Translations under genes and position numbers: made by a program
Shown here: positions 393 to 15,687 of the stretch, piece by piece
Layout: each line of letters starts with the position of its first letter
Numbering within the stretch: position 1 is the stretch's first letter
Assembly: GCA_900469625.1 (NCBI GenBank)
Contig: UBXV01000010.1
Span: forward strand, 104,469-168,468
Direction: 5' to 3'
Length of the DNA stretch: 64,000 nt
Origin: Hyphomicrobiales bacterium
Lineage (GTDB): Bacteria; Pseudomonadota; Alphaproteobacteria; Rhizobiales; Rhizobiaceae
Notes under the pieces: generated by a model
The model's database searches: none
The model's input: only the letters and a program-made list of their open reading frames with translations
Told to the model about the DNA's origin: nothing

Positions 393-1019
393 CTACTTCG
401 CTTCGATCATCTTCGCCCAGCCTGCCGCGCGTTCGGCCGACTGGATCAGCACCGGCTTCGGCGCCTTGTACCATTCGTCCTGCGGCAGGCCGCGCCGGTC
501 GCGCACGAATGCGATCGCGGCATCCAGCGTCGGGAATTCGGCCGGCAGCGTCAGGTGCAGGAACAGCGACACCACGATCACCGAACGCGAGCGTCCGCCG
601 CGGCAATTGACGAGGATGTTGCCCATCTCGCGGCGCGGATAGGACGGCTTTTCCGGCAGAACCTGCTCGAGTGCTGCGCGCAGGATATAGTGGGCCGCCA
701 GCATCTGCGTGTCCGGATTGCCGCCGCCATCGATGAGCCCGGTCTTGTAGTAGCGGATCTCGCCCGGACCGTAGACGCTGCCCTCGTGATCGGACACCAG
801 TTGCGCCTGACGGACGAAATTGAAATCGAGATTGACCGCGCAATTGACGACGGTGGTGATACCGTTCTGCCGCAGGAGATCGAGGTCGCTCGTGCCCTCC
901 TTGCCGGCGATATAGATATCGACGCCATAGTGCGGATGTTGCTTGTAGACGAGGCTGAGCTTGGCAAGCTCCGCCGATGGCTGGCTCTTCGTCTCGGTGT
1001 CCTGGCTTGTGGTCAACAT
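393..1019 (-). CDS. CX5R (dual-specificity/tyrosine-type) phosphatase, copy 1
   Basis: A 208-residue cytoplasmic protein with the cysteine-phosphatase signature NCRGGRSRS: nucleophile C139 and phosphate-binding R145. An upstream Asp in LIDGGGN (D97) is a plausible general acid. There is no signal peptide. It sits 18 bp after an IMPase-like gene, with a good ribosome site (GGAGACAGC before ATG), at the end of the ABC-transporter operon. A clear paralogue at 12856-13464 is likewise paired with an IMPase, sharing the DLDLLR, VVNCA.NLD and NCRGGRSRSV blocks. The family dephosphorylates phosphotyrosine or, in related branches, phosphoinositides and inositol phosphates. The company of an importer and IMPase favours a small-molecule phosphate substrate, but this is inference. 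Confidence 0.8.
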   Translation of the reverse strand: MLTTSQDTETKSQPSAELAKLSLVYKQHPHYGVDIYIAGKEGTSDLDLLRQNGITTVVNCAVNLDFNFVRQAQLVSDHEGSVYGPGEIRYYKTGLIDGGGNPDTQMLAAHYILRAALEQVLPEKPSYPRREMGNILVNCRGGRSRSVIVVSLFLHLTLPAEFPTLDAAIAFVRDRRGLPQDEWYKAPKPVLIQSAERAAGWAKMIEAK

Positions 1020-1037
1020 GCTGTCTCCGCTGTCTGT

Positions 1038-1928
1038 TCAGTTTACTGCTGCGGCAATGCGATTGGCCGAGATCGTCCGCGCCACGCGCTGCAATGTCGG
1101 ATAGTCGCCCCCGGCGCCGGTGGCGATGTAGCCGGGGCACATGAAATCGGGCGCATCCGCCGGCACCTTGCCCAAGGTCAGCGGCTCGTAACGACCGCCG
1201 GCGTTTTTCAGGATCAGGGTCGCCGCCGCGACGTCCCATGAATTGACGCCGAAGCCGGTCGCCGCATCCGCCCAACCGGCCGCCACATGGGCGATGCTGA
1301 GGGCGGCACTGCCCGGCCGCCGAAGGGTGGAGAAGGTCTCGACGAATTCCCCGAGGTTGGCGAGCGCCACCTCCCGGCCGTCGAGGCGAAAGTCGCGCGA
1401 CACGGGATAGCCGGTAATCAGCGTCGCCCGCGTCTCGTCGTCGACGGCCTGCGAGGACAGCACCTCACCATTGAGGTAGGCCTGTTCGAGATCGGCGGAA
1501 AACATCATCTCGGCAACCGGGTCATAGACGACGCCGGCCATGACCTCGCCCCGTTCGACGGCGGCAATCGACACGCACCAGAACGCCAGTCCGCGGGCAA
1601 AATTGGACGTGCCGTCGATCGGGTCGACATACCATTGGATGTCGCCGTCGCCCACCTGCCCTCCCTCTTCGCCGAGCATGGCGGAATTGGGCTCCTGCGC
1701 AAAAATGAAATCGCGAATGCTGGCTTCCGCGCGCTTGTCGTGGATCGTGACGACATCATGCAGGTCGCGCTTGTAATCGACGACCATGTCGGACCGGAAT
1801 GCCTTCAGCAGCGGCTCGCGGACTTGTCTGGCCGCCCCACGGGCGATCTCGGCGAGACGTTTCGACCGCTCCAGCCTTGTCTCAGGGTTGCCCGCTGGGG
1901 CTGTCGCGGCTGAAAGGCGTTTTTCCAT
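1038..1928 (-). CDS. Inositol monophosphatase family protein, copy 1
   Basis: A 296-residue Mg2+-dependent phosphatase of the IMPase/FBPase/CysQ superfamily. Visible active-site elements are GEEGG (E87, E88), the metal-binding DPIDGTSNF motif (D102, D105) and the C-terminal NSWDVAAATLILKNAGG motif. All metal ligands are present, so the enzyme should be active on a sugar, inositol or nucleotide phosphate. It follows the second binding-protein gene of the ABC operon by 66 bp, separated by a strong hairpin, and precedes the CX5R phosphatase by 18 bp. A paralogue at 13547-14389 is in the second operon. The ribosome site before the chosen ATG is weak. Exact substrate is unknown. Confidence 0.88.
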   Translation of the reverse strand: MEKRLSAATAPAGNPETRLERSKRLAEIARGAARQVREPLLKAFRSDMVVDYKRDLHDVVTIHDKRAEASIRDFIFAQEPNSAMLGEEGGQVGDGDIQWYVDPIDGTSNFARGLAFWCVSIAAVERGEVMAGVVYDPVAEMMFSADLEQAYLNGEVLSSQAVDDETRATLITGYPVSRDFRLDGREVALANLGEFVETFSTLRRPGSAALSIAHVAAGWADAATGFGVNSWDVAAATLILKNAGGRYEPLTLGKVPADAPDFMCPGYIATGAGGDYPTLQRVARTISANRIAAAVN

Positions 1929-1960
1929 GTCGTTTGCATCCGTTCCGTAGAGAAAGAGGG

Positions 1961-1987
1961 CCGGTGCGCCAGCCCGTGGCGCACCGG
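1961..1987 (-). terminator. Intercistronic hairpin after binding-protein gene 2
   Basis: CCGGTGCGCCA at 1961-1971 and TGGCGCACCGG at 1977-1987 form a perfect 11-bp stem with a 5-nt loop, beginning 7 nt after the stop codon of the upstream binding-protein gene (minus strand). No T-tract follows, so an mRNA-stabilising or partial terminator role is more likely than full termination. Confidence 0.6.
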
Positions 1988-1994
1988 CATTGCG

Positions 1995-3122
1995 TTACTT
2001 GCTGTAGTTCACGCGCCAGAAATCCTGCCATTCCTCGCGCCGGTCGAAGTCCTCGAGACCGGTCGAGGAATTGTACCCGAACAGGCGGTCGGCAACCGTC
2101 ATCAGCCCCGAGGGCTCGTCAGCCGGCATCTTGATGTCGACGTTGGTCGGCAGCTTGCCGTCCTTCATCTGTGGCGCGATGCCTTCCTCGGTCAGGATGT
2201 AGTGGATGAAGAGCTTTGCCGCGTTCGGGCTCTGCGTCTTCGTCGCGATCAGACCAAGCTTGACATAGGTCCAGCCGACCCAGGGATTGAGTTCCTTGCA
2301 GATGCCGAGCTTGTAGCCCTTGCCTTCGTTGTCGCGGAATTTTGCCGACGAGAGCAGACCGAAGAAGGGCTCCTTCTGCCCGGCCGCACCAACGGCCTCC
2401 GCGACAGGGTCGTCACCCTCGGTGACGAGCGGCGCGTTCTGCGCCAGCGCCTTGATCCAGGCGGCCGACGCGCTCTTTTCCTCGGTCGCAAGGTCCTTGC
2501 CGAAATGGGCCTTGTAGGCACCGGCGACCTTGTCGTCGGCGTGTTTTTCCATCTGGTTGAACCAGTCGGTATAGGTGCCCTTGGTCAAGGGGTCGACGAT
2601 GGCGACCTTGCCCTTCCACTTCGGCTCCGTCAGCTCCCAGATATTGGCGACCGGGCATTTGTCATAGGCTTCGGTGTTGTAGGCCCAGACATTGGCGTTG
2701 GTCGAAATCGCCAGAGGGTTCTGGAACTCCGCCGGGATTTTCGCGACCATGTCGGCCGGCAGGTAGCTCTCGACGAATTCCTGCGGCAACAGCTGCGCAA
2801 GTGCTGCCGGCGCGTCGGTGATCAGGGCGACATCGCCCTGCACGTTACCCGCCTGGCTTTCCCGGATGATCATTTCCAGCTGGCTGTTGGCCGACACTTT
2901 GACGCCGGTCGCCTTGACGCCGTACTTGGCGGTAAAGGCTTCGGCCATCTCGACGATCTTGCCGGTGCTGTCGTAAATATTGATCGGTTTTTCCGTCTTT
3001 GCCGCTGCAATCAGCGCGTCCAGATCGCCGTCGGCTGCTCTGGCCTGCGACGACAGGAGACCCGCCGCCAGTGCGACCGCGGTCATCGTCGTCCCATGCC
3101 GTTTGATCATGTCCGTTTTCAT
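1995..3122 (-). CDS. ABC transporter periplasmic binding protein (Fbp/Afu-like), second copy
   Basis: A 375-residue periplasmic binding protein. The ATG at 3122 is chosen because GGGAGGGGAAA directly precedes it and it starts a signal peptide cleaved near SSQARA-AD. The fold class is the one usually annotated as iron(III)/putrescine binding (extracellular solute-binding family 1 type). It lacks the adjacent tyrosine pair used by classical FbpA for iron. It is clearly over half identical to the neighbour at 3287-4426; both carry YDSTGKIVEMA, LEMIIRE, NVWAYNTE.YDKCPV, DWFNQM.KH and end in WQDFWRVNY. Encoded after the first copy with a 164-bp hairpin-rich gap. AfuA of Actinobacillus, of this class, binds hexose phosphates, so a phosphorylated ligand is plausible. 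Confidence 0.85.
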   Translation of the reverse strand: MKTDMIKRHGTTMTAVALAAGLLSSQARAADGDLDALIAAAKTEKPINIYDSTGKIVEMAEAFTAKYGVKATGVKVSANSQLEMIIRESQAGNVQGDVALITDAPAALAQLLPQEFVESYLPADMVAKIPAEFQNPLAISTNANVWAYNTEAYDKCPVANIWELTEPKWKGKVAIVDPLTKGTYTDWFNQMEKHADDKVAGAYKAHFGKDLATEEKSASAAWIKALAQNAPLVTEGDDPVAEAVGAAGQKEPFFGLLSSAKFRDNEGKGYKLGICKELNPWVGWTYVKLGLIATKTQSPNAAKLFIHYILTEEGIAPQMKDGKLPTNVDIKMPADEPSGLMTVADRLFGYNSSTGLEDFDRREEWQDFWRVNYSK

Positions 3123-3212
3123 TTTCCCCTCCCAAGGAAACCGTGTCCGCTTCCGCGAACTTCGGTGGTTCAGTTTCGCGCGCTGCCATCGGCGCCACGA
3201 AAAGGGCGCCGG

Positions 3213-3237
3213 CGACCGCTCCGTGACGGAGCGGTCG
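3213..3237 (-). terminator. Perfect palindrome hairpin between the two binding-protein genes
   Basis: CGACCGCTCCGT (3213-3224) and ACGGAGCGGTCG (3226-3237) are perfect inverted repeats around a single base, giving a stem of about 10 bp with a 5-nt loop in RNA. It lies 50 bp downstream of binding-protein gene 1. No T-tract follows on the minus strand. Confidence 0.5.
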
Positions 3238-3259
3238 ATTGATGCACTGCATTGACATC

Positions 3260-3280
3260 GCGGCCGGTCGTGCCGGCCGC
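3260..3280 (-). terminator. Hairpin directly after binding-protein gene 1
   Basis: GCGGCCGG (3260-3267) and CCGGCCGC (3273-3280) form an 8-bp GC stem with a 5-nt loop, starting 6 nt after the stop of the first binding-protein gene. No T-tract. It is likely an RNA-stability or processing element, as after the other binding-protein genes here. Confidence 0.55.
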
Positions 3281-3286
3281 GTGCCG

Positions 3287-4426
3287 TCACTTCTGGTAGT
3301 TCACCCGCCAGAAATCCTGCCAGGTTTCGCGGGCATCCCAATCGTCGAGGCTCGTGTCCATCTGGTAGGGCAGAACCTGATCGAGAACCTTGCCGATGCC
3401 CGATGGTTCATCGGCCGGAAGCGCGACGTCGGTGTTGGTCGACATCTTGCCGTCGACCGCCTGCGGCGCGATGCCTTCCGCGGTCATGACGTAATGGATG
3501 AACAGCTTGGCGGCGTTCGGGCTGTTGGTGCCCTTGGTGATCAGCCCGACGCCCGGATACATCCAGCCGAGCCAGGGCTTCAGGTCGGTGCAGAGCCCGA
3601 GCTTCATGCCCTTCTCGGCATTGTCGCGGAACTTCGCCGAGCTCATCAGCCCCATGAACGGCTGCGACTGGCCGGGAGCGCCGACAGCATCGGCCGCCGC
3701 TGCATCCGCATCCGTCAGAAGCGGCGCGTTGGCGGCGAGCGCCTTCACCCATGCCGCCGTCGCGCTGCCGTCGTCGAGCTCCAACTCCTTGCCGTAAAGC
3801 TCCTTGTAGGCGGCGGCGACCTTGTCGTCGCCATGTTTTGCCATCTGGTTGAACCAGTCGACATAGGACGCCTTGCCGAGCGGGTCCTGCATGGCGACCT
3901 TGCCCTTCCACTCAGGGCCGGTCAGTTGCCAGATGTTGGTGACGGGGCACTTGTCGTAGAGCTCGGTGTTGTAGGCCCAGACGTTGGCGCTGGTCACGAC
4001 GGTCAGCGGGCTCTGGTACTGCTGCGGGATCTTCGAAACCATGTCCGGCGGCAGCCAGCTCTCGGCAAAGCCCTGCGGGATCAGCTGCGCCATGGCGGCC
4101 GGCGCATCGCTGATGATCGAGACGTCGCCCTGGATATTGTTGGCGCGGGCCTCGCGGATGATCATTTCGAGCTGCGCCGACGCCTTGACCTTTGAGCCCT
4201 CGGCGGCAACGCCGTACTTGGCAGAGAAGGCCTTGGCCATCTCGACGATCTTGCCGGTGCTGTCGTAGACGGTGATCGGCGGCTCCTTCTTGGCAGCCTC
4301 GATCAGGGCGTTGAGATCGAAGGCCTCCTCAGCCATCGCCTGCCCTGCCAAAAGCCCGGCAAAGGCTGTTGTCCAAAGCAGGCAGCCCCTCGCCTCGCCC
4401 ATCTTTCCATTCTTCCGAAAATGCAT
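3287..4426 (-). CDS. ABC transporter periplasmic binding protein (Fbp/Afu-like), first copy
   Basis: A 379-residue secreted binding protein starting at ATG 4426 behind GAGGAGGAG. The N-terminus (basic MHFRKNGKMGEARG, hydrophobic LLWTTAFAGLLAG, then QAMA-EE) is a signal peptide. It is the closest partner of the downstream ATPase and permease (59-bp gap to the ATPase stop) and is paralogous to the protein at 1995-3122. Two binding proteins for one ABC core suggest two related ligands or one high- and one low-affinity receptor. The standard iron label is doubtful because the tandem Tyr ligands are not seen and the operon encodes phosphatases rather than iron proteins. Ligand is inferred to be an organic phosphate. 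Confidence 0.86.
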   Translation of the reverse strand: MHFRKNGKMGEARGCLLWTTAFAGLLAGQAMAEEAFDLNALIEAAKKEPPITVYDSTGKIVEMAKAFSAKYGVAAEGSKVKASAQLEMIIREARANNIQGDVSIISDAPAAMAQLIPQGFAESWLPPDMVSKIPQQYQSPLTVVTSANVWAYNTELYDKCPVTNIWQLTGPEWKGKVAMQDPLGKASYVDWFNQMAKHGDDKVAAAYKELYGKELELDDGSATAAWVKALAANAPLLTDADAAAADAVGAPGQSQPFMGLMSSAKFRDNAEKGMKLGLCTDLKPWLGWMYPGVGLITKGTNSPNAAKLFIHYVMTAEGIAPQAVDGKMSTNTDVALPADEPSGIGKVLDQVLPYQMDTSLDDWDARETWQDFWRVNYQK

Positions 4427-4485
4427 CGACTGCTCCTCCTCAGTAAGCGGTGTTCGTCTTTCGGTTGATGCGATCAGTGATGTCG

Positions 4486-5619
4486 TCAGTTCAGCTTCGC
4501 GCTGCGCAGCAGCTTGTCTGCCTCGGTTATGCGCTGGCCGTCCTTGTCGAAGACATGAAGCGCGTCGGGTGGCGCGAAGAAGCGGACCTTTTCCCCAAGC
4601 TCGAGCCGCGGCAGCGCGTGCGTCGTCAGGAACAGCGTGTGGCTGTCGCTTCGCAGCTCCAGGATCCAGCTGCCGCCGGTCGGCAGGATGCCGGTCACGA
4701 CCATCTTGCCGCTGAAGCTGCCCTGCGGAACGTCTTCCTTTTTCGTGGCGTAGCTTAGCGCCTCCGGGCGGATGCCGACGGAGCCGATGCCGCGCAGGCT
4801 CGGGTAACGGCTCGACAGGTAGGTTTCCGCCTCCTTGGCCACATCGGACGTGTCCTTCTTGTCGAAGGACAGGATGTTGATCGGAGGGCTGCCGACGAAC
4901 TCGGCGACGAAGCGATTGGCCGGGCGATCATAGATGTCGTTCGGCGTGCCCATCTGCTGCAAGGTGCCTTCGTTCATCACGGCGATGGTGGTTGCGAGCG
5001 TCATCGCCTCCCACTGATCGTGGGTGACGAAGACGATCGTCGTCTTGAATTCCTTGTGCAGGCGCTTGAGTTCGGCGCGCATCTCAAGCCGCAGCCGCGC
5101 GTCGAGGTTCGACAGCGGTTCGTCGAGAAGCAGTACGCCCGGATTGACCGCAAGCATGCGGGCAAGGGCCACGCGCTGCTGCTGACCACCCGAAAGCTGC
5201 GACGGGTAGCGGTCGCGATACTTGGCGATGTCGAGCGCCTGCATCACCTTCTCGACCCGGGCCTCGCGCTCGGCCTTCGGCAGCTTGCGCAGCCGCAGGC
5301 CGAAATCGGTGTTGCGCTCGATGGTCAGGTGCGGCCAGAGCGCGTAGCTCTGGAAAACAAGGCCCATTTCGCGCTTTTCCGGCGGCACGAAGACACCGTC
5401 GAAGATGGAATCCACCACCCGGTCGCCAATGCGGATCTCTCCGCCCGACAGGTTTTCCAGGCCTGCGATCATGCGCAAGGTCGTGGTCTTGCCGCAGCCG
5501 GAGGGCCCGAGCAGACACATGAACTCGCCATCGCGGATTTCGAGATCGAGGTTGGAGACGGCATTGGCGGAGTTGACGCCATAATTCTTCTGGGCGCCGC
5601 GCAGATTGATAGTGGGCAT
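4486..5619 (-). CDS. ABC transporter ATP-binding protein (FbpC/PotA-like)
   Basis: A 377-residue ATPase. The nucleotide-binding domain has Walker A GPSGCGKTT, the Q-loop in VFQSYALWPH, signature LSGGQQQRVALARML, Walker B LLLDEPLSNLD and the H-loop in FVTHDQ. The last ~120 residues form a TOBE-like regulatory domain (VGIRPEALSY). It powers import by the permease encoded just upstream; its ATG overlaps the permease stop by one base (TGATG), so the two are translationally coupled. The substrate cannot be read from the ATPase itself; the family covers iron, polyamine, phosphonate and sugar-phosphate importers. Confidence 0.93.
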   Translation of the reverse strand: MPTINLRGAQKNYGVNSANAVSNLDLEIRDGEFMCLLGPSGCGKTTTLRMIAGLENLSGGEIRIGDRVVDSIFDGVFVPPEKREMGLVFQSYALWPHLTIERNTDFGLRLRKLPKAEREARVEKVMQALDIAKYRDRYPSQLSGGQQQRVALARMLAVNPGVLLLDEPLSNLDARLRLEMRAELKRLHKEFKTTIVFVTHDQWEAMTLATTIAVMNEGTLQQMGTPNDIYDRPANRFVAEFVGSPPINILSFDKKDTSDVAKEAETYLSSRYPSLRGIGSVGIRPEALSYATKKEDVPQGSFSGKMVVTGILPTGGSWILELRSDSHTLFLTTHALPRLELGEKVRFFAPPDALHVFDKDGQRITEADKLLRSAKLN

Positions 5620-7475
5620 CAGCTTCCGAGTCCTTCTGCAAGATTGGTCTTGGTCAGCTTCTGGGCTGCCAGGGTTCCGAGATAGGCGATCGCCGCGATG
5701 ATGAGCACGACCGCGTTTGCCGCCTGGGTGTAGTGGTAGTCGACGAGGCGCAGCGAATAGGTCGTCAGGACGTCGGTGCTGGGCACGGCGAGGATGACGA
5801 ACAGGCTGAGGCCCTTGATGCCGGAGATGAACGGCAGCAACACGCCGGTGACGAGAGAACCCTTCTGGATCGGGATGACGATGGACATCATCCGCCGGAA
5901 CCAGCCGGCACCGGCGATCTGGGCCGCCTCTTCCGGATCCTTGCCGAGCTGGGTCATCGCCGAGATCCCGGCGCGCGAGGCGTAGGGCATCTGGTCGGCC
6001 ATCAGCGCCAGCACCAGGATGGTGACCGTGCCATAGAGCGCCGGCATCGGTCCCCTCGGGACGGCAAAGAGCGAAAGATAGGCGGCGGCAAAGGCAATGC
6101 CCGGCACCAGATAAGGCAGGAACGTCACCTGGCGCAGATAGACCGAGAGCGCTCGCACCGGGGTGCGGATGACGACGTAACCGACCAGCAGGCCGAGGAT
6201 GCCGGAGGCGACCGAGGCGAGGCCGACGATCATCAGCGTGTTCTTCGCAGCCGCCCAGAGGTCGGGGCTCAGCAGCACGCCGGTCTGCAGCGCCACGGTG
6301 TGCAGGTCCCGACCGATCCAGTAGTCGAGCGTGAAGTTGTCGAGCGTGAACTGCGCCGGCAGCTTCATGATCGTCGACAGGAACAAGGTGAGTAGCGGCA
6401 GGCCAACACTCAACATGAAGATGGTTGCGGCAAAGCCGGTGGCCGGAAGCCTCAGTTTGCCGAGCCGGCTCTGACGGTTCATCGAGCCCTTGGAGCCGAT
6501 GGTGACGAAGCGGCGCGCTTCACGCACCAGACGGGCATCGATCATCAGCGTGATGATGCCGATCAGCATGATGGAGGCGGCAACCACACCGGCAACACCT
6601 GTCTGGCGTGAGGCGATGCTGCGGAAGAGCGAGGTGGACAACACCTCGAACTTGACCGGCAGGCCAAGAACATAGGGCACGCCGAATTCGCCGAGGCATT
6701 TTGCGAAGATCAGGATCATCGAGGACATCAGCGCCGGGCGCATCAGCGGCAGGATGATCTGCATTGCCACCTGATAGCGCTTGGCGCCGAGGATGCGGGC
6801 GGAATCTTCCAGCTGGGAATCGAAGCGCCGCAGCGCCGAGCCGAACAGCAGGATGACGAAGGGGGTGTAATGCAGCGCGAGAATGATGGTGATCGGGAAG
6901 CGACCGTAGGCAACCCAGTCCGGCGGTGTCCATCCCAAAGCCTCGAACCAGCCCGGCTGGCCGCCGACCGTGCGGTTCTTGAACAACGTCGTCCAGGCGA
7001 GCGCGAAGGTCCAGGCGGGCAGCATGTAAGGCACGATCAGCGCTGTCGCAAACCAGCGCCGTCCGAACATGTCGGTGCGGCTGATCAGCCAGGCGAGAGT
7101 GGTTCCGATCAGGAGTGACAGCAGGATCGCGCCGACGGCAACCGACAGCGTGTTGAACAGGGGCCGCCAGAAGAGATCGACCGAGACCGGAGACGTGAAC
7201 GTCCGGTCGAGATAATAGAGCGTCAGGTCGCCGAAATCCTTGCCGAGCCTGCGCTCATGCCCGAACTGGACCCGAACGGCATCGAGCACGATGGAGATGA
7301 TCGGGACGACGATCAGATAGGTAAAAAGCAGCGCCGTCAGCACGCCGATCAATGTCGTCGGCTCGCGGGAGGCGACCTTCAGCCGGTATCGCCAGACCTG
7401 CCAGGACGAAGGCACGGCGGACGCCCCGTCGCCCACGGCGGGCGCTGCCTTCGTTGGTTCACTTAGAAATGCCAT
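5619..7475 (-). CDS. ABC transporter permease, two fused permease modules (FbpB-like)
   Basis: A 618-residue inner-membrane protein with about 12 predicted hydrophobic segments in two similar halves, as in FbpB/AfuB-type permeases. Each half has an EAA-like coupling loop: LEDSARILGAKRYQVAMQIILP in the first (shown here as its core, SARILGAKRYQ) and EEAAQIAGAGWFRRM in the second. The ATG at 7475 is preferred over longer frames because AGGGGAGAGAGC precedes it and homologous permeases begin just before the first membrane helix. It is the first gene of the importer operon, 624 bp from the divergent lacI-type gene; that gap holds two proposed LacI operators. Substrate unknown. Confidence 0.9.
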   Translation of the reverse strand: MAFLSEPTKAAPAVGDGASAVPSSWQVWRYRLKVASREPTTLIGVLTALLFTYLIVVPIISIVLDAVRVQFGHERRLGKDFGDLTLYYLDRTFTSPVSVDLFWRPLFNTLSVAVGAILLSLLIGTTLAWLISRTDMFGRRWFATALIVPYMLPAWTFALAWTTLFKNRTVGGQPGWFEALGWTPPDWVAYGRFPITIILALHYTPFVILLFGSALRRFDSQLEDSARILGAKRYQVAMQIILPLMRPALMSSMILIFAKCLGEFGVPYVLGLPVKFEVLSTSLFRSIASRQTGVAGVVAASIMLIGIITLMIDARLVREARRFVTIGSKGSMNRQSRLGKLRLPATGFAATIFMLSVGLPLLTLFLSTIMKLPAQFTLDNFTLDYWIGRDLHTVALQTGVLLSPDLWAAAKNTLMIVGLASVASGILGLLVGYVVIRTPVRALSVYLRQVTFLPYLVPGIAFAAAYLSLFAVPRGPMPALYGTVTILVLALMADQMPYASRAGISAMTQLGKDPEEAAQIAGAGWFRRMMSIVIPIQKGSLVTGVLLPFISGIKGLSLFVILAVPSTDVLTTYSLRLVDYHYTQAANAVVLIIAAIAYLGTLAAQKLTKTNLAEGLGS

Positions 7476-7748
7476 GCTCTCTCCCCTTGAGACCTCGCCT
7501 TGCCGCATGATCCGGCCAAGCGCCGGACGTGTTGCTGACGAGCCACCATGCGAACGGGGAGACCAGGAAAAGCCCCACATCGAGCCGGGACCGCGCTCCC
7601 TCGAGCGAGGCCGGCTGGCGTGAAGACGCGATGCAGCTTCATCGATCCAATCCTCCCTGTTCACGATCGACCCCGTTCAACGATCCTGTTGCGGACCGGG
7701 TCCGACAGCGGCCGACTACTCCTCAGAAGGCGGCGCCATCATCACGAA

Positions 7749-7787
7749 CATGGACGGAATAAACATTCTATTTATAAACCGTCCATG
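7749..7787. repeat. 9-bp inverted repeat in the importer promoter region
   Basis: CATGGACGG (7749-7757) and CCGTCCATG (7779-7787) are perfect inverted repeats separated by a 21-bp AT-rich spacer (centre spacing 30 bp, about three helical turns). The location upstream of the permease gene suggests an operator for a dimeric regulator or part of the promoter. Which factor binds is unknown. Confidence 0.45.
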
Positions 7788-7829
7788 GAACATATGATCC
7801 ACTGAGATGGTGGGCTTGTCAATAAAAAA

Positions 7830-7845
7830 ATGCACACGTGGTCAT
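7830..7845. promoter_or_regulatory. Proposed LacI-family operator, importer side
   Basis: ATGCACACGTGGTCAT matches 13 of 16 positions of the near-palindrome TTGCACACGTGTTCAA found upstream of the second phosphatase operon at 14423-14438. It lies between the divergent importer operon and the LacI-type gene, as expected for an autoregulated local operator. Confidence 0.55.
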
Positions 7846-7898
7846 CAATCTATCTATTTGTTTTCCTTGATTATTTCTTCCTAATTATTGGGCATAGT

Positions 7899-7914
7899 AC
7901 GAACACGTGGTCAC
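7899..7914. promoter_or_regulatory. Second proposed LacI-family operator, importer/lacI gap
   Basis: ACGAACACGTGGTCAC shares ACACGTGGTCA exactly with the site at 7830-7845 (centre spacing 69 bp) and matches 10 of 16 positions of the 14423 palindrome. Two spaced sites would permit looping by a tetramer or separate control of the two divergent promoters. Confidence 0.5.
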
Positions 7915-8099
7915 TGCCGGGCGAACGACTGACCAAAATGCACATGCGAGAGAAGAAGTGACGGGCCAAACAAGGAGGTTTTTGGCAGACCAGCCGTGCC
8001 CCGGGGCGATGCAGTACATCCACGGCAGAAGAAACTTTCCAATGGAATAGCCCGGCTTTTATAAGCCATATGAGCGGAAGCTGATTCTTGAGGAACGCC

Positions 8100-9086
8100 A
8101 TGACAAGAGGGTTCGTTACGGCCGAGGAAGTCGCAAAGCGTGCGGGCGTTTCGCGTTCGGCCGTTTCGCGAACCTTTACCCCGGGTGCCAGCGTTTCCCA
8201 GGCTGTCCGGCGCAAGGTGCTGAAGGCGGCGCGCGAACTCGGCTATCGAGTCAACCGCCTGGCGCAAGGACTGAACAACGACCGCTCGAACCTCATCGGC
8301 GTCGTCGGCACCAATCTCAGCGCGCCCTTCATTTCCAGGCAGCTCGATCTCTTGAGCATCGGCCTGCTCCGGCGCGGACTTCAGTGCCTGCTGCTCAACG
8401 CCGCAGACGCCCGCAAGGATATCGCACCGCTGATCGAGCTGTTGTTCGAATTCCGCGCCCAGGCCATCGTCGTGCTATCGGGCGAGCCCCCGTCCTCGAT
8501 CGTCGATGAATGCATCGCGAATGGCGTGCGGCTGATCCTCGTCAATCAACGGCTCGACCGAACCGATACCAATATGGTGCTCAGCGACGATTCGCACGGC
8601 GCCGACCTCGCGGCACTCCGACTGATGTCCGCCAGGTGCAAGAAGGTGGCCGTCGTTTCAAGCGCCAGCCAGACACCGTCGCAGGTTCGTCGCGCGACGG
8701 CGTTTAGCCAGAGGATGCAGACGGCCGGCATCGAGGTGGTCGCCTGGTCGGACGGGCCGACCGGCTACGAAAGCGGCTATCAGGCGGGCTGCGAACTGCT
8801 GCGCGACAAAAAGATCGATGGAGCATTCTGCGTCACCGACCTTTTGGCGCTCGGCTTCCTCGATGCCGCGCGCATCGAGATGCAGCGGCGCGTGCCCGAG
8901 GACCTCTCGATCATCGGCTTCGATGACATTCCGCAGGCCGGCTGGAAGAGCTACGAGCTGACGACCATCGTCCAGTCTCTGACAACATTGACCGACAACG
9001 TGCTGACGGCGCTCGAAACCGATGAGCCCGCGACCCGGCTGCAGGTGGTGCCGGTCTCGATGATCGAGCGCAAGACGGTGCGCTAG
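8100..9086 (+). CDS. LacI-family transcriptional regulator
   Basis: A 328-residue regulator. The N-terminal helix-turn-helix is typical (TAEEVAKRAGVSRSAVSR, about residues 7-24), followed by the hinge helix region LGYRVNRLAQGL and a periplasmic-binding-protein-like effector domain (LIGVVGTNLSAPF through IIGFDDIPQAGW). ATG 8100 is preferred to the in-frame TTG at 8088 because AGGAA at 8091-8095 then acts as ribosome site. It is divergent from the ABC importer and convergent with the second phosphatase operon, so it sits between its two proposed targets. ACACGTG palindromes upstream of both operons are its candidate operators. The inducer is probably the transported compound or a dephosphorylated product. 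Confidence 0.92.
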   Translation: MTRGFVTAEEVAKRAGVSRSAVSRTFTPGASVSQAVRRKVLKAARELGYRVNRLAQGLNNDRSNLIGVVGTNLSAPFISRQLDLLSIGLLRRGLQCLLLNAADARKDIAPLIELLFEFRAQAIVVLSGEPPSSIVDECIANGVRLILVNQRLDRTDTNMVLSDDSHGADLAALRLMSARCKKVAVVSSASQTPSQVRRATAFSQRMQTAGIEVVAWSDGPTGYESGYQAGCELLRDKKIDGAFCVTDLLALGFLDAARIEMQRRVPEDLSIIGFDDIPQAGWKSYELTTIVQSLTTLTDNVLTALETDEPATRLQVVPVSMIERKTVR

Positions 9087-9087
9087 A

Positions 9088-9143
9088 AGCGTTTAGAGGC
9101 AAAGTGCGAAGCGGTTTTCTGTCGGGAAATGCGCAGAAACGCT
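9088..9143. repeat. Short intergenic repeat-like unit of rhizobial type
   Basis: This 56-bp stretch between convergent genes is bounded by AGCGTTT (9088-9094) and AAACGCT (9137-9143) and contains AAAGTGCGAAGCGGTTTTC and GGAAATGCGC, word combinations I recall as common in rhizobial intergenic repeats. It may also fold and act as a bidirectional terminator. Only one copy is in the window, so repetition cannot be shown here. Confidence 0.4.
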
Positions 9144-9153
9144 CGAACTTAAA

Positions 9154-10797
9154 TCACCCGGCCTGGCGGATACGGCTTTCGATCAGAAGGCCGCTATCGT
9201 CGAGGATCGGGTGGGCAACGGACGCGATGTGAGCGTTGATGCGCTTGAGGTCGCGCAGCATGTCGAGGTGCAGTGAACTTGTCTCGATGCTTTCTGCCCT
9301 GCCGTCACGCAGGCGCTGCAGATGCCGCTCGGCCGATTGCCGTTCAAGGCGGCGCACATCTTCCTTCACCTCAACCAATCGCCGGGCGAGCGCTGCATCG
9401 CGGGTGGCAAACACAGTCTGCGCCAGGCGCAGATTGTCGAGCGTGATGACAAAGAGCCGCGTCAGCTCCTCATGGCCATCCCGCGAAAAGGCCAGCCCGA
9501 GCGAGATCTTCTTGGCAAGTTCGGCCAGCAAGCCCTTTTCGATGATGTCGCCGATATGTTCGAGGTTGATGGCGTAGTCGACGACATCCATGGCGCGCCG
9601 ACGGTTGTCCTCGCCGATCTCTGCCTGGCCGAGGCGCGAGACATAGACCTTGATCTGGTGCTGCAGCCGGTCGACCCGGCCCTCAAGCGTGCTGATGGCG
9701 GCAAGCTTCGACGCGTCCGCGTGCTGGAGCGCGGCGCTCGCCTGGCCGAGCATGCTTTCGATCAGATCGCCGACGGCCAGAACCTCGCGGCTGGCACCGG
9801 CAAGGGCTGCGACTGGCGTCGAAAGCTTGTCCTCGTCGAGGTAACTCGGCGCATCCGGCATCTGCCCGGGCTCCGGCAACAGCCGGGCTGTCAGCGCCGA
9901 AAGCGGGCGCGACAGCGGCCAGGCGAGCATTGCGAGCGCCAGATTGAAGATCAGGTGCGCATCGACAGGCAGTTTTTCGTGCGACAGCGGCAGGATGTCG
10001 AGCAGCTGCGCCGAGTAGCCGGCAAGCGGCAGCGCCACCAAGCAGCCGATCGCACGCACGATGAGATTGCCGATCGTCACGCGCCTGGCGCCGATCGGCG
10101 AGCGCAGCGTCGCCAGGACCGGCGGCACGGCACCGCCGAGATTGGCCCCGAGAACGAGGACGATGATCAGCCCGGTGGAAATGCCGCCCGTTGCAGCGAG
10201 CGACAAGATGAGGACGACGATCGCGAGGCTGGAGGATGCGAGGATCGCCAGCAAGGCAGAGAAAATCAGTGCGACCGGCCAGGCATTGTCCAGCATCGCC
10301 AGAAAAGCGGAGAGCGCTGCGGAGGCGCGCAGCGGTTCCGTCGCAAGCCCGATCAGGTGCAGTGACAGCAGCATCAGCCCGACGCCGACCACGGCCGCAC
10401 CACCGCCCTTTCGCGCGTTCGAGGTGCCGCGCGACAGGATAACGCCTGTCAGAATGAGGAGCGGCGAGAGCCAGCCAATCCCGAGCGATACGATCCAGGC
10501 GGTCATCGCGGTGCCGACATTGGCGCCCAGAAGCACGATCTGCGCCATGCGCGGCGCGACGAGATTGCGTTCGGCAAAGGACGCGATCATCAGCGCCGTG
10601 GCGGTCGAGCTTTGCAGCGCGACGGTCGCTATGAGGCCGGCGAGAAAGGAGCGCACGCCATCGCGCGTGCCGGCCGCCAATCCCGTCTTCAGCCTGGCGC
10701 CGAAGGCGCGCTGCACACCGGACTTGACTTGCGACAGCCCGAACAACAGCAGCGCCACGGCGCCGAAGAGATTGATGCTGACGATCGTCGATTCCAT
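9154..10797 (-). CDS. Na/Pi cotransporter family protein with PhoU-like C-terminal domain (YjbB-like)
   Basis: A 547-residue inner-membrane carrier. The first ~310 residues contain two inverted hydrophobic repeats of the Na/Pi-cotransporter II family with the QSSTAT motif near residue 62 and a second Ser-rich element (ASSSLAIVV). The remaining ~230 residues are helical and PhoU-like (VDRLQHQIKVYVSRL, HIGDIIEK). Length and architecture match E. coli YjbB, which has been proposed to export phosphate. It is the last gene of the operon IMPase - phosphatase - phosphoesterase - HTH - carrier, 43 bp after the HTH gene. In that context it may release surplus phosphate freed in the cytoplasm. Import rather than export cannot be excluded. 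Confidence 0.9.
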   Translation of the reverse strand: MESTIVSINLFGAVALLLFGLSQVKSGVQRAFGARLKTGLAAGTRDGVRSFLAGLIATVALQSSTATALMIASFAERNLVAPRMAQIVLLGANVGTAMTAWIVSLGIGWLSPLLILTGVILSRGTSNARKGGGAAVVGVGLMLLSLHLIGLATEPLRASAALSAFLAMLDNAWPVALIFSALLAILASSSLAIVVLILSLAATGGISTGLIIVLVLGANLGGAVPPVLATLRSPIGARRVTIGNLIVRAIGCLVALPLAGYSAQLLDILPLSHEKLPVDAHLIFNLALAMLAWPLSRPLSALTARLLPEPGQMPDAPSYLDEDKLSTPVAALAGASREVLAVGDLIESMLGQASAALQHADASKLAAISTLEGRVDRLQHQIKVYVSRLGQAEIGEDNRRRAMDVVDYAINLEHIGDIIEKGLLAELAKKISLGLAFSRDGHEELTRLFVITLDNLRLAQTVFATRDAALARRLVEVKEDVRRLERQSAERHLQRLRDGRAESIETSSLHLDMLRDLKRINAHIASVAHPILDDSGLLIESRIRQAG

Positions 10798-10840
10798 CTG
10801 TGCCCGTTCCCTTATGCGTCGTGCCGCCTACGGCCCGGCA

Positions 10841-11137
10841 TTACTGCCGGCCGCGCCGCAATTCCTCGCGGAACAGGTTTTGGAAGGCTGCGTATTTCTC
10901 GAAACCAAGATCGTTGATCAACCGCATGACGGTGGAGGTGGAAACGCCGGCGCGCGCGGCCACTTCCCGCGCACTGGCGAAAGCGATGTCATAGGGATGC
11001 GAAAGCGCGAACTTGGCCACTTCGAGCCGGCCGCCCTTCAGGCCGCGAGCGCCCAGGCGAAACGCCTCCTTCAATTCCGGAACGCTCGCCGGCGGTCTCT
11101 GGCCATGGGCCGGCAAGGCAAACGATGGCTGATCCAT
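10841..11137 (-). CDS. RpiR-type helix-turn-helix protein lacking the SIS domain
   Basis: A 98-residue protein made almost only of an RpiR-family N-terminal DNA-binding domain (AREVAARAGVSTSTVMRLIN, then GFEKYAAFQNLFREEL). Full RpiR regulators are about 280 residues and carry a C-terminal sugar-phosphate-sensing SIS domain; here the frame stops straight after the HTH, and the following 43 bp hold no SIS remnant before the next gene. It lies 3 bp after the metallophosphoesterase gene, so it is co-transcribed and translationally coupled. It may be a stand-alone regulator of the operon or a decayed regulator that kept its HTH. The ATG at 11137 is the first in frame. Confidence 0.75.
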   Translation of the reverse strand: MDQPSFALPAHGQRPPASVPELKEAFRLGARGLKGGRLEVAKFALSHPYDIAFASAREVAARAGVSTSTVMRLINDLGFEKYAAFQNLFREELRRGRQ

Positions 11138-11140
11138 AAT

Positions 11141-12856
11141 TCAAACAACCTCCCTGACGTGCAACCGCAATGGAATCTCGATCCGGCGCGCACCAATTTC
11201 CGCGCGGTCGAGAAAAGCGCTGAAGGCACCGAAGAAAATCGACAGGAAACCGGGGACCGAGCCGTCCCAGCCCTCCTCAGGTTCTTGGCCAAACCTTTCG
11301 GCAAGGGCGCGATAGAGCCGAAGCCGCGCGGGCGCGATCGCCGGTAGCGCCAGGTGTGCTGCCTGCCGCAGGCAGTACCAGTCGGCGATGATGTCGATCA
11401 TGCGCAGTGCCGCGATCTCGTCAGCAGAAATTTCCGACGATTTTGCAAACGCGTGCAACGTCGATGCCGCGGTTTCGACGTCGAGCAGCTCGGCGCAGAC
11501 GTCAGCGAGGGTGGCATCCGAAACGCGGCTCACCACGTCCTGCGGCCATTCCTTGACGAAGTAGCGGTGGTGCACCAGCGCCTGCTTGTGGGCGCGTAGA
11601 AACGCACCATAATCGGCGGCATCGAAGGCAGGATCGCCCGCTTCGCCGCGGCGTTCGGTCTCCAGACGATAGGCCTTAGCCAGCCGCCGATCGAGCGCCG
11701 CTTCCTGCAGTTCGACGGTATCAACTGTGACGCCGGCATCCGTCGGCTCGATGATCTTGAAGGCCGGAGGATAGGCGACCAGCGACGGCACTGCCACGTT
11801 GGTGAGCCGGCGCCCGCCGTCACCCCGCCGCGTCACGCCTTCCACATGAAGATGGCCGCTGAAATGCACGGCAAGCCCGGCACCGAGCAGGGCGTCAAAG
11901 ACAGCGTCACGTGGCGTGCGCCGGGCGACATTGGTTTCCCCGAACAGCACGCGCTCGGCGCCGGTCGCGCCATCGAATGGATCGAGTGCCGGATAGTGCG
12001 AGAAGGCGAGCACGGTCTTGCCCAGCACCTCAGCCCGTGCGCAGACGTCGGCGATCCAGGTGAGGATGAAGGGCTTCAGCCGCAGCATTGCGTTCCATCC
12101 CGCCGCCGTGCTGTCGACAAAGGCCGCCTCCTCGCCGCCTTCGAACGTGCCGTCGCGCGGCTCGAACACATTGGCATCGATCATCAACAACCAGATGCCC
12201 GGCTCCGGCTCGACCAGATAGGACGCGTCCATCAGCGCATGGCGGTTGCTTCCATCAGGCGAGACCACCTGATAGCGCCGGCTTTCCACGTCGTCGGCAA
12301 GGCCGAAGGGCGTCTCCCAATGGAGGTAGTCCGGTTTGCGAAAATAGCCGTAGGCAGCCATCGGGCCGAGACCGGACGGGTAGCCCTCGCAATACATGCG
12401 CGGCGTCACGATAGCGCCCTCGACGGGCGATGCCGGATCGCTCGTCACCCAGACGCCGGCGCCATCCTGATCCAGGAACTCCTTAGTGTGATTGCGCCCC
12501 TGCGGGCCGAAGATATCGTGGTTGCCGGGAAGGGCGTAAAAGGCGGTGCCGTGCTCGCGCGCATGCCGGTCGAGAATGCGACGCAGGCTCGCGGTCGTCT
12601 GACGCTGGCCGTCGTCGGTATAGTCCCCGAGAAGCACGACATGGCGGATGCCACGCGCACGCACTTCGTCCAGCGCCACGGAAAGCGCCCTGGCACTCTC
12701 GTTGAAAACGCGGGTCGACTGGCGTGTTTCCGACCAGCTGCGAACCATCATCCGCTCGCCATCAACGGTCATGCCGGGAAAATCGAAATCGCCTTCGAGA
12801 TCGTGGAAATGCGCATCGGCGATGACGGCAATGCGCGGTTGGCTACGCTTCAACAT
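11141..12856 (-). CDS. Metallophosphoesterase (calcineurin-like)
   Basis: A 571-residue cytoplasmic dinuclear-metal phosphoesterase. Motifs in order: ADAHFHD (D14, H16), GDYTDDGQ, GNHDIFGP, an internal SHYPALD and GHLHVEG, covering the metal ligands of the superfamily. The ~250 C-terminal residues after the catalytic domain are helical and without a recognised domain. ATG 12856 overlaps the stop of the upstream phosphatase (TGATG), making the longer frame unnecessary. No signal peptide is present. In the operon with an IMPase and a CX5R phosphatase it could split a phosphodiester before the monoesterases act, for example a glycerophospho-polyol. Substrate is inferred from context only. Confidence 0.87.
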   Translation of the reverse strand: MLKRSQPRIAVIADAHFHDLEGDFDFPGMTVDGERMMVRSWSETRQSTRVFNESARALSVALDEVRARGIRHVVLLGDYTDDGQRQTTASLRRILDRHAREHGTAFYALPGNHDIFGPQGRNHTKEFLDQDGAGVWVTSDPASPVEGAIVTPRMYCEGYPSGLGPMAAYGYFRKPDYLHWETPFGLADDVESRRYQVVSPDGSNRHALMDASYLVEPEPGIWLLMIDANVFEPRDGTFEGGEEAAFVDSTAAGWNAMLRLKPFILTWIADVCARAEVLGKTVLAFSHYPALDPFDGATGAERVLFGETNVARRTPRDAVFDALLGAGLAVHFSGHLHVEGVTRRGDGGRRLTNVAVPSLVAYPPAFKIIEPTDAGVTVDTVELQEAALDRRLAKAYRLETERRGEAGDPAFDAADYGAFLRAHKQALVHHRYFVKEWPQDVVSRVSDATLADVCAELLDVETAASTLHAFAKSSEISADEIAALRMIDIIADWYCLRQAAHLALPAIAPARLRLYRALAERFGQEPEEGWDGSVPGFLSIFFGAFSAFLDRAEIGARRIEIPLRLHVREVV

Positions 12857-13464
12857 CAGTCCTTCCCTGATCCCTCGCCGGCAATCCTGTCGATCCATCC
12901 GGATGCCCGACGCGCCGCCTCGTAGAGCATCGGCTTCGGCGTCTCGAACCATTCGTCGGGCCGCAGTTCGCGATGTTCGCGGATATGGGCAACGGCGGCA
13001 TCGAGCGTCGGGAACAGCTCCGGCTGCTGCTTATGCAGGAACAGCGCGACCAGCGACACCGAGCGGCTACGGCCGCCGCGGCAATTGACCAGCACATTGC
13101 CACCATCGGCGAAGGGATAGGTCTCGCGCTTGGGCATCGCCTGGCGCAGCGCGCCGTCGAGGATGTAATAGGCGCCGAGCATCATCGTGTCGGGACTGCC
13201 CTCGCCGTCGATCAGGCCGAGCTTGTAATAGCGAATATCGGCATAGCCGCTCGGCCGCAGGTCGCCCTCGTCATCGGCTGCGTCACGCACCCAGTTGATA
13301 TCCAGATTGATCGCGCAGTTGACGACGACCGAGATGCCGTGGCGCCTGAGCAGATCGAGATCGCGGGCACCGTCGCTGCCGCCGATATAGAGGTCCGAAT
13401 TGTGCGGGCCAAAGCCCTTGGCGATCAGACTGATCGCCGGGCGCGCGTAGACTGGGGCATCCAT
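12856..13464 (-). CDS. CX5R (dual-specificity/tyrosine-type) phosphatase, copy 2
   Basis: A 202-residue paralogue of the phosphatase at 393-1019, with nucleophile C128 and R134 in NCRGGRSRS and a candidate general acid D86 in LIDGEG. The start at 13464 (MDAPVYARPA) is chosen because the conserved core begins soon after and AAGGAAA precedes it; the frame runs open further upstream but overlaps the IMPase gene. It lies between the IMPase (82-bp gap) and the metallophosphoesterase (1-base overlap). Keeping an IMPase plus this phosphatase in both operons argues that the two enzymes act on the same compound class in sequence. Confidence 0.82.
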   Translation of the reverse strand: MDAPVYARPAISLIAKGFGPHNSDLYIGGSDGARDLDLLRRHGISVVVNCAINLDINWVRDAADDEGDLRPSGYADIRYYKLGLIDGEGSPDTMMLGAYYILDGALRQAMPKRETYPFADGGNVLVNCRGGRSRSVSLVALFLHKQQPELFPTLDAAVAHIREHRELRPDEWFETPKPMLYEAARRASGWIDRIAGEGSGKD

Positions 13465-13546
13465 GCCATTTCCTTTCCAGATCGGACGGCGCCGAAGCGC
13501 GGGCCGCCCACAAAATTCCGACTGTTGGCGCCGCAGGCGCCATCGT

Positions 13547-14389
13547 TCATGTAAGCGCCAGTTCAGCCACCCGTTCGCTCGCCGACGCGATCGGGATCCG
13601 CGACGCCCGGCTGATGCCGCCGGCAATGCCGGGAGCGGATGCGAGCACCGGTCCGCCATCGCGAAGGCTGCCGATATCCATGAAGGGGCAAACCTCGCCG
13701 CCGGCTTCGGCAACCAGCAGCAGGCCGGCAAGGCAATCCCATGAGTTCATGTGCAGCTCGACATAGGCGTCCGAACGACCGTCAGCGACATAGGCGAGCG
13801 CCAGGGCGCCCGAGCCTGCCCTGCGCACATTGGTTCCAAGCGCCAGCAGATCGCTGATGGCTTCGAGGTAGATCTCGTTCGCCACCCGGCCGGACCAGCC
13901 CATCTCGACGGATGCCGCTTCAAATGCCGTGGTGGCCGAGACCCTGATCGGCTGGCCGTTGCGGGTCGCGCCCGCCCCGCGCTCGGCGAAATAGAGCTCG
14001 TCCTGCGCCGGATTGAAGATCGCGCCGATTTCGGCCCGTCCATTCTCGATATAGGCGATGGAGATGCAGAAATGCGGGATGCCGCGCGCAAAATTGGCAG
14101 TGCCGTCGACCGGATCGACCACCCAGAGGCGATTGCTTATCGTTCCGCCGCCTTCCTCGCCGAAGAAGGCGTCATCGGGGAAATGGGCGGCGATCGCCGT
14201 GCGGATATGCGCCTCGGAAGCCGCGTCGGTCTCGGTCAGGAAATCCTGCGGTCCCTTCATCGAAAAGCTGCGGGTCGCACTGTCTTGGAAGCCCCTGAGC
14301 ACCAGCGCTCCGGCCGACAGGATGACATCCCGACAGAGGCGCGCCCGACCCTTCAGGTCGTCCGAGTAGTGTGGTTCTTCCAGCTTCAT
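13547..14389 (-). CDS. Inositol monophosphatase family protein, copy 2
   Basis: A 280-residue IMPase-superfamily phosphatase with GEEGG (E78, E79), the metal motif DPVDGTANF (D92, D95) and the C-terminal NSWDCLAGLLLVAEAGG motif. Start ATG 14389 (MKLEEPHYSD) is preferred to the in-frame ATG at 14428 because the latter would place the proposed operator palindrome inside the coding sequence. It is the first gene of the five-gene second operon and divergent from the galactofuranose transporter, with a 324-bp shared control region. Only the catalytic motifs are strongly shared with copy 1, so the two IMPases are not recent duplicates and may prefer different phosphate positions. Confidence 0.87.
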   Translation of the reverse strand: MKLEEPHYSDDLKGRARLCRDVILSAGALVLRGFQDSATRSFSMKGPQDFLTETDAASEAHIRTAIAAHFPDDAFFGEEGGGTISNRLWVVDPVDGTANFARGIPHFCISIAYIENGRAEIGAIFNPAQDELYFAERGAGATRNGQPIRVSATTAFEAASVEMGWSGRVANEIYLEAISDLLALGTNVRRAGSGALALAYVADGRSDAYVELHMNSWDCLAGLLLVAEAGGEVCPFMDIGSLRDGGPVLASAPGIAGGISRASRIPIASASERVAELALT

Positions 14390-14404: not shown

Positions 14405-14420
14405 TTGCACACGCGAGCAT
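14405..14420. promoter_or_regulatory. Proposed second LacI half-operator, phosphatase operon
   Basis: TTGCACACGCGAGCAT repeats the first nine bases of the palindrome at 14423-14438 at an 18-bp centre spacing, placing a tandem, weaker site next to it, just before the first gene of the phosphatase operon. Confidence 0.4.
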
Positions 14421-14422: not shown

Positions 14423-14438
14423 TTGCACACGTGTTCAA
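14423..14438. promoter_or_regulatory. Proposed LacI-family operator, phosphatase operon
   Basis: TTGCACACGTGTTCAA is a near-perfect palindrome (14 of 16 positions symmetric) centred on the CG step typical of LacI-family operators. It lies 34 bp upstream of the IMPase start. The core ACACGTG plus TCA recurs at 7834-7844 and 7903-7913 next to the lacI-type gene. Confidence 0.6.
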
Positions 14439-14631: not shown

Positions 14632-14659
14632 TTCAAACGTGAGTTTACAAAAGTACTAT
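14632..14659 (+). promoter_or_regulatory. Possible sigma-70 promoter for the galactofuranose operon
   Basis: TTCAAA (14632-14637), a 16-bp spacer and TACTAT (14654-14659) form a weak -35/-10 pair in a locally AT-rich stretch about 55 bp before the binding-protein start. A small GCTGCT/AGCAGC hairpin (14679-14695) lies in the leader. The rest of the 14390-14713 gap holds the LacI-type sites and nothing else I can recognise. Confidence 0.3.
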
Positions 14660-15676: not shown

Positions 15677-15687
15677 TCCCAAGGCCC

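Follow-up and report, generated by a model that had tools for sequence, protein, structure and literature searches.

What does a bacterium import with an ATP-binding cassette (ABC) importer whose operon ends in two phosphatase genes, and which lies close to a second operon that begins with two more? This question is raised by positions 393-14389 of a 64,000-nucleotide stretch of a Hyphomicrobiales bacterium (GenBank assembly GCA_900469625.1, contig UBXV01000010.1, positions 104,469 to 168,468), hereafter the window, which belongs to a genome of 6.54 Mb. Open frames and family profiles place ten genes plus a LacI-family regulator gene in this interval. An initial annotation had proposed that an intact organic phosphate, tentatively an inositol phosphate, is imported under LacI-type control and stripped of its phosphate in the cytoplasm as a carbon source. 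We consider it likely that the locus serves LacI-controlled uptake and cytoplasmic dephosphorylation of inositol phosphates, and are less confident that carbon is the main purpose. This reading is well supported by four lines of comparative genomics: phytases or multiple inositol polyphosphate phosphatases (MINPPs) with porins adjoin related importers, as do inositol catabolism (iol) genes, a common operator recurs, and the genes co-occur within one genus. The same lines favor both the general scheme of the initial annotation and the substrate that it had offered only tentatively.

Phytase and inositol catabolism genes beside related importers

Periplasmic histidine acid phytases and MINPPs release lower inositol phosphates. 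In several gammaproteobacteria, genes for such enzymes are found beside the window-type system or under the same operator. On a Klebsiella plasmid, genes for a histidine acid phosphatase (HAP) and a KdgM-type porin precede the importer operon. The best Protein Data Bank (PDB) match of this HAP is the Klebsiella 3-phytase 2wnh (E 4e-82, 279 bits), as opposed to 138 bits for glucose-1-phosphatase. The same plasmid encodes an inositol monophosphatase family protein (IMPase) fused to a CX5R phosphatase, of the type that we call DSP for its dual-specificity phosphatase fold, in one protein of 479 amino acids (L011:13146-14585). In Vibrio sp. HDW18 a Porin_4 porin and a HAP are divergent from the importer, and the HAP best matches 6rxd, which bears the name histidine acid phosphatase, and the MINPP 7zgf. 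In two Halomonadaceae loci (L077 and L085) a HAP is the gene after LacI; the L085 enzyme, the only one of the two tested, best matches the MINPP 4fdt (E 2e-49), and a Porin_4 gene comes next. By best solved match, three HAP types adjoin the same importer. The RHGxRx motif is present in all 15 HAPs listed, and their N-termini look exported by eye.

We also examined co-occurrence in 48 genomes of one genus, including Marinomonas spartinae and M. polaris. A DSP is encoded in 20 of the 48 genomes, two of which (G828 and G982) show a lone DSP only. HAPs are present in 10 of the 48, and all of these carry a DSP (10/20 with versus 0/28 without; hypergeometric 2.8e-5, uncorrected for kinship).

Genes for inositol breakdown provide the next link. 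In Marinomonas G962, G967, G981 and G985 LacI comes after the importer operon, then a thioesterase gene and iolG, B, A, E, D and partly C; G974, G984 and G992 have iolG- and iolB-cluster genes at the same place. The iol names rest on representatives (L146 and L149) that score over NCBIfam cut-offs, the remainder being assigned by cluster membership. In five Marinomonas loci (L101, L103, L141, L146 and L149) a lone DSP adjoins iol genes and the importer operon is missing. The gene set is likewise adjoined by iolE, D and C in Cucumibacter marinus and by iolG and iolB in Devosia naphthalenivorans (L060), all over NCBIfam cut-offs. In a permease tree of 38 rows Devosia groups with the window, at a support of 87/68 that is not strong, and Cucumibacter and Marinomonas fall elsewhere. 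The window genome itself carries iolE on another contig. Within Marinomonas, iolE scores over the cut-off in 13/20 DSP-bearing versus 10/28 DSP-free genomes (p 0.04), a weak association. With so weak an association, the proposal of carbon-source use is supported in part only.

An operator shared by the two operons

A 10-mer is common to the gap between the LacI and permease genes and the stretch preceding the second operon. A first search for CG-centered palindromes found only the second-operon site, and the pair was recognized through the shared 10-mer. The 6.54-Mb genome has exactly two copies of the pattern TGNNCACGTGNNCA, at window positions 7831 and 14424, one in each operon promoter; reversed as a control, the pattern occurs once. 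When one mismatch was allowed, the 64-kb window gave four matches, every one of them in the two promoters (chance mean 1.9 for the whole window). Both promoters thus carry an operator that is otherwise rare in the genome, and its binding by the LacI protein is predicted.

In relatives the operator generalizes to TGCAC-N4-GTGCA. This strict form has 97 unique sites in 127 loci, of which 92, in 53 loci, are near the start of a reference-set gene and 52 are nearest a permease; "near" means from -150 to +450 of the start of any reference-set-like frame, including general ABC ATPase and permease hits. With another choice of 124 loci, 94 of 97 sites were near such starts. Five control palindromes gave 0, 0, 1, 19 and 2 unique sites in the 127 loci. 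A perfect TGCAC-N4-GTGCA is also present at or just before the start of 4/11 Marinomonas HAP genes, all four with a porin next door, and these genes are located on other contigs than the importer or, in G985, about 2.5 Mb away. HAPs of the 41% type in Marinomonas were not counted as regulon members, as no operator was found at them. Genome-wide, G984, G985, G989 and G992 have 5, 4, 4 and 2 strict sites, compared with 1, 0, 0 and 0 for the backward control. A few of these sites lie outside importer and HAP promoters, some of them identical between genomes. In the window genome the strict form is absent genome-wide, and its backward control occurs twice. Regarding phosphate control, a Pho-box search that tolerated up to 3 mismatches found nothing near the operons; the 64 kb holds two weak matches elsewhere, fewer than the chance mean of 3.3, and Pho-box control of the operons was rejected.

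Gene set, conservation and phosphatases

Open frames and families confirmed the gene content and the two-operon layout of the initial annotation (Table 1). The gene order described there also stands, with the corrections that both operons are on the minus strand, that LacI is divergent from the permease and that the metallophosphoesterase and Na/Pi genes are 343 bases apart. The first operon (7475 to 393) reads permease, ATPase, two binding proteins, IMPase1 and DSP1; the second (14389 to 9154) reads IMPase2, DSP2, metallophosphoesterase and Na/Pi carrier, with the plus-strand LacI gene between them. The permease start at 7475 is our choice. The two binding proteins are 63% identical to one another, and the Na/Pi carrier with its PhoU domain scores 347 bits with TIGR01013 (cut-off 306). 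The active-looking motifs and the lack of signal peptides noted for the phosphatases were borne out by eye: GEE, DPxDGT and WD in the IMPases, GD, GNHD and GHxH in the metallophosphoesterase and NCRGGRSRS in the DSPs look complete, and none of the phosphatase N-termini resembles a signal peptide.

Table 1. Features of the importer-phosphatase locus, in window coordinates.
Feature	Position	Strand	Basis or remark
DSP1, cytoplasmic CX5R phosphatase	393..1019	-	P-loop NCRGGRSRS; predicted fold DSP-like
IMPase1, inositol monophosphatase family	1038..1928	-	PF00459, 165 bits (cut-off 27)
Binding protein 2	1995..3122	-	SBP_bac_11; top PDB sequence match AfuA 4r72, E 2e-5
Binding protein 1	3287..4426	-	SBP_bac_11
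ABC importer ATPase	4486..5619	-	Profile matches
ABC importer permease, fused, two permease domains per chain	5619..7475	-	618 amino acids, two BPD_transp_1 stretches
LacI operator TGCACACGTGGTCA	7831..7844	.	Permease/LacI intergenic
Operator with one mismatch CGAACACGTGGTCA, second in permease/LacI gap	7900..7913	.	Pattern match
LacI-family regulator	8100..9086	+	PF00356; ATG 8100, alternative start TTG 8088
Na/Pi carrier with PhoU domain, proposed Pi exporter	9154..10797	-	TIGR01013, PF02690, PF01895
Calcineurin-like metallophosphoesterase	11141..12856	-	PF00149, 37 bits; sole PDB match 2xmo, E 0.01
DSP2, cytoplasmic CX5R phosphatase	12856..13464	-	DSPc 30.0 bits
IMPase2, inositol monophosphatase family	13547..14389	-	PF00459, 198 bits (cut-off 27)
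One-mismatch operator TGCACACGCGAGCA, second-operon promoter	14406..14419	.	Pattern match
LacI operator TGCACACGTGTTCA, second-operon promoter	14424..14437	.	Pattern match

An alignment of eight DSPs was scanned against a collection of genome contigs. The scan showed that 226 stretches encode a DSP relative, and the best 80 of the 226 were kept, giving 77 loci, mostly Rhizobiales, in which gene presence was scored at set identity thresholds. Of these DSP-selected loci, 71/77 have the full core of permease, ATPase, binding protein, IMPase, DSP and LacI; counted singly, there are 75 loci with IMPase, 76 with LacI, 43 with the Na/Pi carrier, 35 with the metallophosphoesterase and 3 with HAP. Because the six core genes recur in 71 of the 77 and a rare operator is common to both operons, the arrangement exceeds chance. 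Among the six incomplete loci, L033 is a cut-off contig, L076 and L079 have no IMPase hit, and L071, L073 and L084 have another importer. The ABC importer of the latter three (permease 38-39%, binding protein 28-29%) takes the place of the window-type one beside LacI, IMPase, DSP, metallophosphoesterase and Na/Pi carrier, and the same operator type lies upstream of IMPase.

The DSP is rare. It was found in 6/398 genomes of a phylum sample that includes the window genome, with only a distant 35-37% type in 3 of the 6, in 1/369 genomes of a sample of the class of G158 and in 3/244 of a sample of the order of G158; no DSP relative was found in viral contigs. The closest plasmid relatives among the matches listed are from Ensifer/Sinorhizobium, DSP1 being 92% identical in Ensifer canadensis pT173e and 76% identical in its Sinorhizobium meliloti pSymB copy.

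Both IMPases belong to the inositol monophosphatase family PF00459. DSP1 and DSP2 score 29.6 and 30.0 bits with DSPc (PF00782), just below its gathering score of 33.5, and this is the sole Pfam family matched by both at E 0.001; there was no Pfam match to the PTP-like cysteine phytases (PF14566). The DSP model (predicted local distance difference test, pLDDT, 85.9) has the fold of dual-specificity phosphatases, nearest VHR, and the P-loop C-R-x-G-R-S-R-S is present in 110/111 distinct DSP frames. Because VHR also has an arginine directly after the cysteine, the distinctive residue is the arginine four places after it. PTEN and PTPMT1 reportedly have basic residues at both P-loop places. The predicted arginine-rich pocket would suit a polyanionic substrate.

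Several neighboring or related arrangements were also observed. A YtfQ-type sugar ABC importer lies at 14639-19384 on the plus strand, divergent from the second operon, its ATPase and permeases being named by eye, and the operator at 14424 sits in the gap common to both. Its binding protein matches YtfQ (2vk2, E 1e-130), and we set it aside as a separate importer. In many close relatives (L007 and many of L014-L045) a third binding-protein frame is found between the two; the window has a gap of 164 bases there (3123-3286). At G000:C19:119000-129984 (L109, 5382-10737) there is a second importer of the same class, with permease 64%, ATPase 58% and binding protein 50% identical, which adjoins a phosphonate-binding-type protein and a two-component system close to the contig end. 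A more distant DSP (35-40%) lies beside another iron-type ABC importer in L106-L108 and L013, together with an annotated metallo-beta-lactamase-fold hydrolase in L013 and with TGCACACGTGTGCA close to the ATPase and LacI starts in L107 and L108. This set is possibly a sister system for another phosphate ester. In G907 (L104:6706-9864) the DSP is immediately followed, on its own strand, by genes for a binding protein of the phosphate/phosphonate type (TIGR01098, over cut-off) and for an ATPase, parts of a PhnD-type importer.

Alternative ligands and a proposed pathway

Automatic annotation names the permease of relatives "iron ABC transporter permease", and the binding-protein model (mean pLDDT 92.7) does have the FbpA/FutA fold of iron(III) and other metal importers. 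Adjacent Tyr-Tyr residues are iron ligands of FbpA-type importers. Such a pair is present in 0/48 aligned binding proteins, however, and the frequent IMPase and LacI genes of the 77 loci are a further argument against a metal ligand. Import of iron or another metal is accordingly hardly credible, and the missing Tyr-Tyr pair makes iron-only binding, one outcome that the initial annotation had named as fatal to its proposal, unlikely. AfuABC, moreover, shows that such labels can mislead, according to the available part of its description (PMC4546632). An AfuABC-like importer of hexose or other sugar phosphates, with IMPase and DSP as sugar phosphatases, would fit the nearest solved proteins by sequence, which are AfuA 4r72 and the glucose-6-phosphate-binding VcA0625 (8x1a). 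These AfuA matches are weak, with E about 1e-5 to 1e-6 (2e-5 for a single protein, 9e-7 for a profile). For the AfuA ligand residues, given as Ser37, Thr150, His205, Asp206 and Glu229 in the part of the source at hand (PMC4546632), the alignment covers parts only and scores low. In the ranking by fold, VcA0625 comes 24th, and the 50 matches listed do not include AfuA itself. We find a sugar phosphate very unlikely, as the linkage of the relatives is to phytases, MINPPs and iol genes, and the Klebsiella HAP is nearer to 3-phytase than to glucose-1-phosphatase. The residues K59, K79, R91, K185, K265, R267, K327 and R366 are invariant in 48/48 binding proteins. 2-Aminoethylphosphonate transporter families (PhnT2/PhnU2) provide the best NCBIfam permease model and the second-best ATPase model, yet the scores with TIGR03262 and TIGR03265 are far below the curated cut-offs (138/593 and 331/458 bits) and this ligand was rejected. 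Genes for 2-aminoethylphosphonate adjoin the Vibrio locus and none is annotated in four other annotated stretches, the rest not having been searched for them.

Closer to the favored substrate is a phosphodiester such as glycerophosphoinositol, which the metallophosphoesterase would cut inside the cell before IMPase and DSP dephosphorylate the product. The addition of this enzyme in rhizobial-type operons (35/77 loci) speaks for it, and the iol linkage is compatible with any inositol ester, but the Klebsiella, Vibrio and Halomonadaceae loci have a phytase or MINPP instead of such a metallophosphoesterase, and two monoesterases are a better fit to a polyphosphate; we regard a phosphodiester ligand as unlikely. 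A role of the DSPs as protein phosphatases, controlling the operon products and not acting on the substrate, is decidedly improbable. Their best solved matches are indeed VHR-like dual-specificity protein phosphatases, and against this stand the DSP-IMPase fusion of Klebsiella and the lone DSPs beside iol genes in Marinomonas. The same substrate could also be used primarily for phosphorus, a purpose that overlaps with our reading and that we find possible but doubtful. Inositol phosphates are rich in phosphorus and 7/20 DSP-bearing Marinomonas have no iolE; this is countered by the LacI-type regulator without a nearby Pho box, by the proposed Pi exporter in 43/77 loci and by the iol linkage in Devosia, Cucumibacter and Marinomonas.

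Several observations weigh against uptake of inositol phosphates as we propose it. The conservation survey covers the best 80 of 226 relatives and is dominated by Rhizobiales. The fold of the binding protein is generic, with iron- and metal-citrate-binding proteins ranking first, and the fold and first P-loop arginine of the DSPs are common to VHR, a protein phosphatase. HAPs can act on other phosphoesters, and a PF00328 search, other phytase families not being searched, found no HAP in the window genome. In the loci read of the window's own clade there are no iol genes beside the operons, and all seven DSP-bearing Marinomonas genomes without iolE carry the importer, which speaks against a general carbon-source role. 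Within one mismatch, no operator was found at 7/11 Marinomonas HAPs, which are of a more distant lipoprotein-like type, at 4/5 Marinomonas lone-DSP loci or at the importer locus L145. The control palindrome AGCACN4GTGCT, with the same inner eight letters, also clusters (19 unique sites, 15 near); it may be an operator variant, and the consensus given here is provisional.

Gene families, the conserved set, operator sequences and the linkage to phytase and iol genes in relatives are computed results, while from the genomes we infer the ligand, the reactions and their order, the direction of Pi flow, the binding of LacI and its effector. Under uptake of inositol phosphates, the binding proteins would capture the lower inositol phosphates that phytate yields in the environment; their release would fall to a secreted phytase or MINPP, linked or co-regulated and accompanied by a porin, in Klebsiella, Vibrio, Halomonadaceae and some Marinomonas. 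The ABC importer would bring these lower inositol phosphates into the cell intact, and in the cytoplasm one or more DSPs, with the extra arginines of their P-loop, and one or more IMPases would strip the phosphates, assisted in the rhizobial version by the metallophosphoesterase, perhaps on phosphodiesters. The resulting myo-inositol would enter the iol pathway where present, and surplus Pi would exit through the Na/Pi-PhoU carrier. Pi export by a carrier of this type is known from E. coli YjbB, and an exporter would be sensible because growth on inositol phosphates as carbon releases far more Pi than the cell needs. The LacI protein would bind TGCAC-N4-GTGCA-like sites before both operons and be released by an inositol-type effector. 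With no HAP in its genome, the bearer of the window would need lower inositol phosphates from others, another phytase, or phosphodiesters that the metallophosphoesterase could open.

In the usual picture phytate loses its phosphates outside the cytoplasm and the cell takes up Pi or inositol, unlike the dedicated importer and cytoplasmic phosphatases proposed here. The agrocinopine (acc) system of Agrobacterium imports an intact opine phosphodiester by an ABC transporter and processes it with a cytoplasmic diesterase and an IMPase-like phosphatase. It resembles the window system in importing an intact organic phosphate and dephosphorylating it inside with an IMPase-like enzyme, and differs in binding-protein class and substrate; we know of no DSP, phytase or iol linkage of acc. 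AfuABC is similar in that an importer with a related binding protein, labeled an iron transporter, imports an intact organic phosphate; AfuA, however, takes glucose-6-phosphate, fructose-6-phosphate and sedoheptulose-7-phosphate, and the accessible part of that report mentions neither a phosphatase or phytase nor a LacI operator or iol genes alongside it (PMC4546632). The Caulobacter myo-inositol module ibpA-iatA-iatP plus iol shares the iol end pathway and, unlike the window system, imports free inositol; its authors, in the portion available, merely suggest that another transporter may carry inositol phosphates (PMC2597717). As far as the accessible parts of two further reports go, work on phosphate stress in S. 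meliloti places a putative phytase elsewhere (PMC8829014), and a survey of LacI regulons finds inositol once and phytase not at all (PMC4052901). Among the literature matches listed, seen as titles and abstract openings with most subscription journals outside the scope, there was no bacterial inositol-phosphate ABC importer and no description of this gene set. ABC import of an organic phosphate is of a known kind, and what would be new is a substrate class for which we found no described bacterial importer, together with an operator that appears to tie outer-membrane, periplasmic and cytoplasmic steps in some relatives.

Phytate, the main phosphate store of plant seeds, makes up a major pool of organic phosphorus in soils and seeds. 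Taken together, it is probable that the parts spread across alpha- and gammaproteobacteria, including S. meliloti pSymB, belong to an undescribed pathway for phytate carbon and phosphorus, composed of a porin, a secreted phytase or MINPP, the importer, cytoplasmic DSP and IMPase and a Pi exporter, with the one LacI operator TGCAC-N4-GTGCA over all. The presence of the locus on pSymB makes the proposal directly testable in that model symbiont. If true, a transporter group annotated as iron importers would gain a substrate and an uncharacterized DSP family a function, and inositol phosphates as such would be exchanged and consumed in the rhizosphere and in the sea.

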